57,120 nucleotides of DNA, from the NCBI GenBank assembly GCA_017538365.1, contig JAFYIZ010000010.1, positions 1 through 57,120 of the forward strand. Reading direction: 5' to 3'. Source of the stretch: a bacterium. Its GTDB lineage: Bacteria > UBP6 > UBA1177. The position numbers and the translations under genes are program-made. Below, one piece after another: positions 33,486 to 36,442 of this stretch (positions within the stretch are counted from its first letter, which is position 1; the number at the start of each line of letters is the position of its first letter). Below the pieces are notes generated by a model. It was not told where the DNA came from and searched no databases. It worked only from the letters and a program-made list of their open reading frames with translations.

Positions 33486-34934
33486 ATGAGAAAAAGTGTT
33501 GTTTTCATGACATTGTTGGCAATCTTCGCATTCGCAGGATGCGGCTCAGTTTCCCTTTTCGAGAAAGGAAACGCGGCAAGAGAAACGGACAAAGTCAAAG
33601 CGCGCGGCTACTACGAGGAAGCGTGTGAGAAGGAAAATCATCTTGAGGCCTGCCACAACGCGGCACTGCTCTGGCAGAACGGCGACGGCATAAGCGAAGA
33701 GAACAAAAAAGCGCGTGAACTCTTCAAAAAGGCATGCGACGGCAAGTTCGACGAGTCATGTTTTATTCTTGCTGATATGTGGGCAAACGGCAAAGGCGGC
33801 GTTTATAAAGACACCGATTCCGCTTTCAATCTTTACAAGGAAACATGCGAACGCGGTCTCGGCAAAGCTTGCAGAGGCGTAGGTCAGATCTATGCAAAAG
33901 GCGGCGGTTCGATTGCAAAAAGCATTGACAAGGCTAAGGAGTATTTCGAGCTTGCATGCAACAAAGGCGATATGAACACATGTGTCGATCTCGGTCAGAC
34001 CTGGTCGAAAAAATTCGACGAGGAGGAAGGTTACAATAAAGTCGTTGCTTTCTGGGGCAAAGCGTGTCAGGAAGGCGGAATGCTCGACATCTGCGAAAAG
34101 CTGGCTGATATGATCGTTGCATCAAAGGAAAAGGAGGAAAAGGTTCCCCTTTCAAAAGGATATTACGAAAAAGCCTGTGACGGCGGTTCGAAAGAGGCCT
34201 GCTACAAACTTGCCCGCGCAATGGTCGAAAATGTTGAAGGTTCCGACGGCGAAGCTCAGGTTTATTACAAAAAGGCCTGTGAGGCAGATCATGCGGAATC
34301 GTGCTACTATATCGGCGTTTATCTGAGTGAGGCTTACGGCGAAACGCTGGAGCTCGACAATCTGAGAGAAATGCACTCTTTCTACGACAAGTCCTGCAAA
34401 AAAGGTTTCGAGGCGTCATGCTCGAGCGCATCTTCGCTGCAGGCTACGATAACAGAGCAGGAAGAGGCTATCCGCAGAGAGGAGGAAGCAAAAAGACTTG
34501 CAGAGGAAGAAGCCCGCAAAGAGGCTGAGAGACTGGAGGCTGAGGCTGCTGAAAGGGAAAGACTTGAAAGAGAAAAAGCTGAACTTGAAGAGAGACTTGC
34601 TGAAGAAGAAGCAAGAAAAGAGGCTGAACGTGAGGAGCGCGAAGAACAGGAAAGAATGAGGCGCGAACGCGAAGAAGCTGAAAGAGAAGCGGCCGAAGCT
34701 GCTGCAGCTGAAGAAGACGAGGACGAGGAGGATGAAGAAGAACCGGCTCCGAAGAAAAATGTCAACAAAAAGAAAGCTCCGGAACCTGAAGAAGACGAAA
34801 TAGACGAAGATGAAGATGAGGACGAAGAAGACGAGGAGGAGCCTGCTCCGAAGAAAAAATCCAAATCAAAATCGAAGTCAAAATCGAAAAAGAAAAGTGC
34901 CGAAGACGAATTTGACGATCTTTTCGACGACTAA
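33486..34934 (+). CDS. Sel1-repeat lipoprotein with a charged coiled coil
   Basis: A protein of 482 residues. Lipobox FAGC (C19), then about eight Sel1-like repeats of 36-38 residues (for example ARELFKKACDGKFDESCFILADMWANGKGG), each with paired Cys. Residues about 325-410 are a long Glu/Arg/Lys coiled coil, and the end is a run of acidic and Lys-Ser repeats (EDEDEEDEEEPAPKKK, KSKSKSKSKSKK). The Cys pairs suggest disulfide-stabilised repeats in the periplasm. It probably acts as a scaffold; no enzyme domain is present. ATG 33486 follows AGGAGAG. It converges on the CorA-type gene with an 18-bp gap. Confidence 0.85.
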   Translation: MRKSVVFMTLLAIFAFAGCGSVSLFEKGNAARETDKVKARGYYEEACEKENHLEACHNAALLWQNGDGISEENKKARELFKKACDGKFDESCFILADMWANGKGGVYKDTDSAFNLYKETCERGLGKACRGVGQIYAKGGGSIAKSIDKAKEYFELACNKGDMNTCVDLGQTWSKKFDEEEGYNKVVAFWGKACQEGGMLDICEKLADMIVASKEKEEKVPLSKGYYEKACDGGSKEACYKLARAMVENVEGSDGEAQVYYKKACEADHAESCYYIGVYLSEAYGETLELDNLREMHSFYDKSCKKGFEASCSSASSLQATITEQEEAIRREEEAKRLAEEEARKEAERLEAEAAERERLEREKAELEERLAEEEARKEAEREEREEQERMRREREEAEREAAEAAAAEEDEDEEDEEEPAPKKNVNKKKAPEPEEDEIDEDEDEDEEDEEEPAPKKKSKSKSKSKSKKKSAEDEFDDLFDD

Positions 34935-34952: not shown

Positions 34953-36320
34953 TTAGAACCAATCCTTCTTCTTGAAATACCAGACGACAAGTCCTGAAAA
35001 CATTATTGAAATTATTACGAAAACTGCGAATGCGTAAGGTGATTTGTCACCGGGCAGCTGGATGTTCATGCCGTAGATAGAAGCGAACATGACGGGAACG
35101 GTGAGGACGATCGTGATGATGGTGAGAAGTTTCATGATGTTGTTCAGTTTGTTCGAGATGATCGAACTGAATGCAGTCATCATTTCGCTTACGATGTTGT
35201 TGTAGATTGACGACATTTCGATTGCCTGTTTTGTCTCGATAACGATGTCGTCGATTTTGTCGTCGTTCTCCTCGGTTTCGGGAACCAGACCGATTTTCCT
35301 CAGTTTCATCGCCATGAACTCGTTTGATTTAAGCGCAGTCGTGAAGTAGACGAGACTTTTTTCAAGGTTCAGAAGTTTTGCCAGGTCTTCGTTTCGGCTT
35401 GTTTCCTGAATCTTTTTCTGGACGATCGTGATAATGTTGCTTATCTGTTTGAGGTAAAGCAGGAAAAGCTGCGTCGTATCGTAGAGAATAGAAAGGGTGA
35501 AATCGTCTTTTGCTAGGCTTCCCAAGTATCTTTTCTGCATGTTTTCAATCATTTTCGAAATAAGTTCTGTCGCCATGTTGCAGACGAGAAGGATCGTGTT
35601 TTCGGCAAAAATTATGCCGAGCGGAACTGTTCCGTACATTTCATCCTCGTCGGTCGAATCGTAGTAGGGGATTTTGACGATGACGAGTTTGCAGTTTTCG
35701 TCTTCTTCGATCCTGGCCCTTTCATCCATGTCGAGAGAATAGTCGAAAAAGTCCGCCGGAATTTTCAGCTCTTTGCAGAGAAAGTCGATTTCTTCCTGAC
35801 CAGGATCTGTTACCGTGATGAGTGTTCCTCTTTCCAACTTGTTGATTTGTTTGAGCTTTTTTGCAAAAGGCTTGTAAACACGGATGCTTTCGTGAATGTT
35901 GCCTTCGCGGTCACGGATGATACCGGGCATATTTCCGAAAAGAGCTTCCTGAGCAAGTCTGGACTCTTTATCGATTTCTTCGATTAAATCGTGGATCTCC
36001 GCCTTTTTCTCTTCGCTTAAGATCGAAAGGATCTGCGGATGCATCGTTTCAGGCAGTTCGTAGAGCAGTTCGGCAAGTTCGCGGCTTGAGAGCTGCATGA
36101 CTAACTGATTTTTGACGTCGTCTTCAAAAGCGGAGAATATGTCTGCTGCGATCTCCTCGTCAATAAACGAGAAAATCTTAATAATTTCGCTTATATCCAG
36201 TGCTTCAAAGAAGTTCGCGACAACATCGGGCGGGTTTGACTCGGCAAAATCTTTGATATCCTCAAAGAGACCGTCTTCCAGCATCTCCCTGATTTCTTTG
36301 ACGAGCAGTGTATTTTTCAT
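34953..36320 (-). CDS. MgtE_N-CorA fusion: magnesium/divalent cation transporter
   Basis: A protein of 455 residues with an unusual architecture. Residues about 14-135 are an all-helical repeat (DVVANFFEALDISEIIKIF, EEIAADIFSAFEDDVKNQLV, SSRELAELLYELP) that looks like the cytoplasmic N domain of MgtE. Residues about 145-455 are CorA: a soluble funnel and two C-terminal helices (about 395-415 and 429-447) with the signature YGMN at 416-419. CorA-type channels carry Mg2+ inward. In MgtE the N domain senses Mg2+ to close the pore; here it may gate a CorA pore (inference). The gene has a leader of about 115 nt with its own small reading frame and a hairpin over the AGGT ribosome site. Confidence 0.88.
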   Translation of the reverse strand: MKNTLLVKEIREMLEDGLFEDIKDFAESNPPDVVANFFEALDISEIIKIFSFIDEEIAADIFSAFEDDVKNQLVMQLSSRELAELLYELPETMHPQILSILSEEKKAEIHDLIEEIDKESRLAQEALFGNMPGIIRDREGNIHESIRVYKPFAKKLKQINKLERGTLITVTDPGQEEIDFLCKELKIPADFFDYSLDMDERARIEEDENCKLVIVKIPYYDSTDEDEMYGTVPLGIIFAENTILLVCNMATELISKMIENMQKRYLGSLAKDDFTLSILYDTTQLFLLYLKQISNIITIVQKKIQETSRNEDLAKLLNLEKSLVYFTTALKSNEFMAMKLRKIGLVPETEENDDKIDDIVIETKQAIEMSSIYNNIVSEMMTAFSSIISNKLNNIMKLLTIITIVLTVPVMFASIYGMNIQLPGDKSPYAFAVFVIISIMFSGLVVWYFKKKDWF

Positions 36321-36325
36321 GATTA

Positions 36326-36346
36326 CCTCCCATCGGACGCGGGAGG
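36326..36346 (-). promoter_or_regulatory. Hairpin sequestering the ribosome binding site of the CorA-type gene
   Basis: On the minus strand CCTCCC (36346-36341) pairs perfectly with GGGAGG (36331-36326) across a 9-nt loop. The second strand is the Shine-Dalgarno sequence of the transporter, whose ATG begins at 36320. When folded, it should block translation. Confidence 0.65.
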
Positions 36347-36359
36347 GAAGGGTGGAATA

Positions 36360-36416
36360 CTAATCTCTCCGGCTACCGACTAAAAATTTTGTCACGCTAC
36401 CTAAAGGATCTTCCAT
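36360..36416 (-). CDS. Leader peptide MEDPLGSVTKFLVGSRRD in the transporter mRNA leader
   Basis: An 18-codon frame, ATG 36416 to TAG 36360, behind GAGGG four bases upstream. It lies wholly in the predicted leader between the promoter (36470-36443) and the CorA-type start (36320). The N terminus Met-Glu-Asp-Pro resembles in kind the acidic/proline-rich starts of enterobacterial MgtL-type leader peptides, which destabilise ribosomes when Mg2+ is low. The stop codon is 14 bases before the strand that hides the transporter's ribosome site, so translation of the frame could change folding. Expression is inferred only. Confidence 0.5.
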   Translation of the reverse strand: MEDPLGSVTKFLVGSRRD

Positions 36417-36442
36417 TTTACCCTCAAAAAATAAACCGCGGC

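Follow-up and report, generated by a model that had tools for sequence, protein, structure and literature searches.

Leader arrangements in which a ribosome faltering on a short frame unmasks the start site of a Mg2+ transporter gene have so far been demonstrated by experiment mainly in Salmonella relatives. In the mgtQ-mgtB system of Salmonella and its relatives, an 8-codon frame located between genes carries its own Shine-Dalgarno (SD) sequence and early acidic codons, and is combined with three alternative pairings (regions 1:2, 2:3 and 3:4) that exert translational control over the P-type ATPase MgtB. The SD of the transporter gene lies in 3:4, the published energies of 2:3 and 3:4 are -16.4 and -12.26 kcal/mol, the alternative stems have been tested by mutation in Salmonella, and acidic codons 2 and 5 are required (PMC8092293). 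In the mgtL-mgtA system of Salmonella and E. coli, the EPDP sequence at codons 2-5 of MgtL destabilises the ribosome, an effect that EttA counters (PMC11282234) and that higher Mg2+ may counteract (PMC11552253); regulation there proceeds by Rho-dependent transcription termination. The corL frame precedes corA, uses UUG as its start codon in E. coli, has one proline in its conserved N-terminal region, is translated inversely to CorA, and belongs to a longer, Rho-mediated leader with termination near position 220 (PMC11552253). The M-box (ykoK) and Mg sensor riboswitches are further examples of leader RNAs that precede Mg2+ transporter genes.

We analysed the leader of a Mg2+ transporter gene in a stretch of bacterial DNA of 57,120 nucleotides (the window). 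The gene, on the minus strand at 34953-36320, encodes a protein of 455 amino acids that matches Pfam PF03448 and PF01544, in agreement with its identification as an MgtE_N-CorA fusion in an earlier note made from the sequence alone. It is the only CorA gene in the genome, and a search of genomes of the genus for an MgtE channel domain found none. The promoter and the leader frame described in the earlier note are also borne out. A sigma-70-type promoter, TTGCAA-16-TATAAT (36470-36443, 10 of 12 matches), is kept with variation in relatives. The leader behind it measures about 116 nt and extends to the transporter start at 36320, with no intrinsic terminator on the minus strand. Within this leader, the SD sequence GAGGG (36425-36421) precedes an 18-codon frame, MEDPLGSVTKFLVGSRRD (36416-36360), that starts with ATG at 36416 and ends with TAG at 36362-36360. 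The gene upstream in the window encodes a class II fructose-bisphosphate aldolase, other sequence occupies this place in several relatives, and the conserved block starts at the promoter. As a separate observation, a small hairpin (36425-36403) can arise between the frame's SD, as GAGGGU, and the AUCCUU of its codons 3-5; it is kept in most species, with A-U in place of G-U in L002.

The leader can be divided into four regions with alternative predicted partners. Region 1 (GATCCTTTAGGTAGCGTGAC, 36410-36391) comprises codons 3-9 and is predicted to pair with region 2 (GTCGGTAGCCGGAGAGA, 36380-36364), the 3' end of the frame, which as a putative antisequestor has region 3 as its other predicted partner. 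Region 3 (36348-36332) consists of the anti-SD arm CCTCCCGC and the SD-hairpin loop, and region 4 is the transporter SD itself, GGGAGG (36331-36326), which together with 36346-36332 forms the sequestering hairpin 3:4.

This organization closely parallels that of mgtQ: a short frame with its own SD, early acidic codons, a transporter SD placed in 3:4, a competing 2:3 helix (weak in leaders L010 and L011) that is the more stable of the two in the window (-15.9 and -10.4 kcal/mol for the 2:3 and 3:4 hairpins), and predicted translational control of a Mg2+ transporter. There are also differences: the frame in the window stands in a 5' leader, first behind its own promoter, has 18 codons with adjacent acidic residues followed by proline, and precedes a CorA-type channel with an MgtE_N domain in another phylum. 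There is no detectable sequence relationship between the two leaders, nor homology by position. The earlier note had pointed to mgtL as its model; the acidic and proline codons after the start (EPDP in MgtL, EDP here) are indeed shared, but the SD hairpin suggests translational control, and mgtQ is the closest counterpart. On the basis of these features, we consider it probable that the leader is an mgtQ-type translational attenuator of independent evolutionary origin.

To examine conservation, 14 leaders were compared, each from one species-level genome of the genus of the window; a 15th genome was left out as its contig begins inside the transporter gene. The records of the genus are labelled UBP6 or uncultured bacteria and come mostly from ruminant guts. 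The frame with its own SD (GAGG in all 14) is present in every leader, once per genome and always before the MgtE_N-CorA gene, and is retained even in the several leaders where the upstream gene neighbourhood differs. The acidic and proline-containing start for which the earlier note proposed to search relatives is found in all 14, in the constant form M-[ED]-D-P-[LF]-[GS] (with E/D2 and D3 invariably present), and codons 1-4 vary at third positions only, which yields E/D exchanges and synonymous proline codons. The remainder is variable, and the frames of relatives have 15-18 codons: apart from MEDPLGSVTKFLVGSRRD and its I10 or W16 variants, L008 encodes MEDPFSHVTNFLVGSRRD, a one-base insertion in L009 produces the frame-shifted C-terminal part of MDDPFSCAADFFSRL, and in L010 and L011 the C-terminal part is rewritten (MDDPFSSDNLTNIGAESR). 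Given the frame shift in L009 and the rewriting in L010, constraint on the peptide would apply to its start only. Conservation thus falls on the SD, the start, the [ED]-D-P motif and the downstream RNA, as opposed to the C-terminal peptide. In a comparison of the window with L010, identity at 4-fold degenerate sites of the transporter gene is only 40%, compared with 14 of 18 bases at the frame start (binomial 1.3e-3 against 0.40) and 20 of 21 in the SD hairpin (1.4e-7 against 0.40).

A covariance-model search of the phylum returned the 14 known sites and otherwise noise, and no relatives of the leader were found among viral contigs and phages. In the sister genera G015 (L028) and G016 (L030), leaders of a few tens of bases retain the TTGCAA promoter element and do not contain the frame, and five f3 genomes examined have no comparable frame, which implies that it was either gained within the genus or lost outside it. 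Apart from the leader itself, the genome of the window has a single close match to the leader start, GAGGGAAAAATGAAAGATCC (L070:1500-1570, G000:C27:99148). This second match occurs in most genomes of the genus and was rejected, as it is the ordinary start of a gene for a 373-aa product beginning MKDPRIVKIAKNLVNYST.

The SD hairpin is fully conserved, with GGGAGG pairing with the directly upstream CCTCCC through standard pairs in 100% of cells in every sequence. The competing 2:3 helix, a near-continuous antiparallel pairing, was spotted by eye in the window before the comparison with mgtQ, and L009 and L010 provide the real tests of it. Its duplex energies are -17.2 (window), -18.8 (L009) and -17.9 kcal/mol (L010), and shuffles of region 2 did as well with p of 0.0025 in the window, <0.0005 in L009 and 0.04-0.05 in L010/L011; a second test of the gain in L010 gave p = 0.2. 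When regions were exchanged between types, region 3 of L009 and of L010 each preferred its own region 2, and region 2 of L010 also paired well with the window-type region 3. In alignment A4, 96.9% of the 2:3 cells are paired, as opposed to 38-60% in slid controls. Two-sided changes from G-C to A-U affect pair 1 (L010/L011) and pair 16 (L009), a number equalled by 47 of 500 shuffles, covariation being thin because there are only three clearly different leader types. The support for the pairing therefore comes from three sequence types and appears weakest in the most diverged one. An extra helix proposed by RNAalifold (columns 58-62/75-79 of alignment A3) was discarded, since its two-sided changes stem, in our reading, from a misplaced gap in L010/L011. 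The 1:2 helix is part of the predicted full fold of window-type leaders and does not outperform shuffles in L009 or L010 (p about 0.47 in L010/L011). The fold suggested in the earlier note, ATGGAA of the frame start with TTCCA after the stop, is confined to the window, relatives having, for example, CCTTCACC or TCTTAAACC after the stop; the supported alternative joins the 3' end of the frame to the anti-SD arm.

Folding under constraints indicates how these helices may succeed one another. With region 4 still unmade, 2:3 is the best fold in all five types tested. Covering region 1 while the SD is present leaves 2:3 as the fold of lowest energy, with 3:4 broken, in the window-type leaders folded and in L009, together seven of nine; in L010 and L011, 3:4 remains the minimum-energy fold, ahead by 4-5 kcal/mol. 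Since placing a ribosome on codons 1-4 still leaves the SD paired in several folds of the full leader, the switch would need folding during transcription. Assuming such a mechanism, 1:2 and 3:4 would form when no ribosome occupies the leader frame, hiding the transporter SD, and a ribosome that reaches the stop codon would cover region 2, so that 3:4 forms and the SD is again hidden. At low Mg2+, the ribosome would be paused or destabilised at the Glu/Asp-Asp-Pro codons, and, judging from footprint size, with codons 2-4 in its P site it would cover region 1 largely or entirely; region 2 could then capture region 3 during its transcription, freeing the SD and allowing more transporter to be made. 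The conserved frame start, the SD hairpin and the 2:3 helix in three types can be read from the sequences themselves; we infer that the frame is translated, that the conserved EDP destabilises the ribosome, that Mg2+ is what is sensed in this way, and which way control runs. The ribosome-based sensor envisaged in the earlier note is partly supported, by the conserved acidic-acidic-Pro start before the sole CorA-type gene and by the mutually exclusive folds.

A simpler explanation would be plain translational coupling, in which a ribosome on the frame opens structure near the transporter SD and the EDP codons sense nothing. The frame stop lies 36-47 nt ahead of the transporter start and the frame's SD overlaps free-fold pairings with downstream sequence, both compatible with coupling; however, the SD hairpin survives in constrained folds that place a ribosome at the stop, and coupling does not account for the retained acidic-acidic-Pro start or for the 2:3 helix, which makes this explanation rather unlikely. 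Alternatively, the same 1:2/2:3/3:4 switch might report general translation capacity, through charged tRNA-Pro, EF-P or an ABC-F factor. EttA or EF-P can tune stalling at early acidic/Pro codons (PMC11282234; PMC6460261), but lone Pro codons are not known to cause stalling (PMC8092293) and the target gene is a Mg2+ transporter, so that we regard a signal of this type as distinctly unlikely. The loop of the SD hairpin, like the stem, is conserved, as might be expected of a riboswitch that binds a metal or ligand directly, with the frame being incidental. Nevertheless, the 2:3 helix accounts for the conservation of the loop, Rfam covariance models, including M-box and Mg sensor, gave no match to the leader, and the start codon, SD and acidic codons of the frame are retained, which together render direct binding very improbable. 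That a chance frame resides in a conserved, unregulated leader is scarcely credible, for although short frames are common and some of the conservation could be at the RNA level, this one persists with its own SD in all 14 species-level genomes at saturated neutral divergence.

Returning to the mgtQ-type attenuator, we tentatively propose, as a serious possibility, that bacteria from a rumen candidate phylum arrived independently at a nascent-peptide Mg2+ sensor controlling translation of their only CorA/MgtE-type transporter. If so, evolution would have turned ribosome destabilisation by early acidic residues into a gauge of Mg2+ on more than one occasion, and repeated recruitment is to be expected if the instability of ribosomes at low Mg2+ works as such a gauge in general. 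An mgtQ-like layout in an unrelated leader, before a transporter of another family and in another phylum, would be a direct case of convergence, in which the acidic/Pro start would be the sensor and the rest of the peptide would merely carry the RNA pairing.

Several additional features of the locus were recorded. Codons 1-10 of the transporter gene (36320-36291) are nearly without synonymous change among window-type species, in which 4-fold sites of the whole gene are ~60% identical. The first part of the gene may itself belong to the RNA structure: folding predicts that AAAAAUA, close behind the transporter start, pairs with the 5' U-tract. Both sides of this pairing are near-invariant or coding, and this candidate was set aside as uninformative either way. 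The genome carries an L31 gene; in attenuators of the mgtQ type, ribosome destabilisation at the acidic codons depends on L31 and Mg2+. Finally, on the opposite strand at 33486-34934, a neighbouring gene converging on that of the transporter encodes a Sel1-repeat protein whose C-terminal end consists of long Glu/Asp-rich runs.
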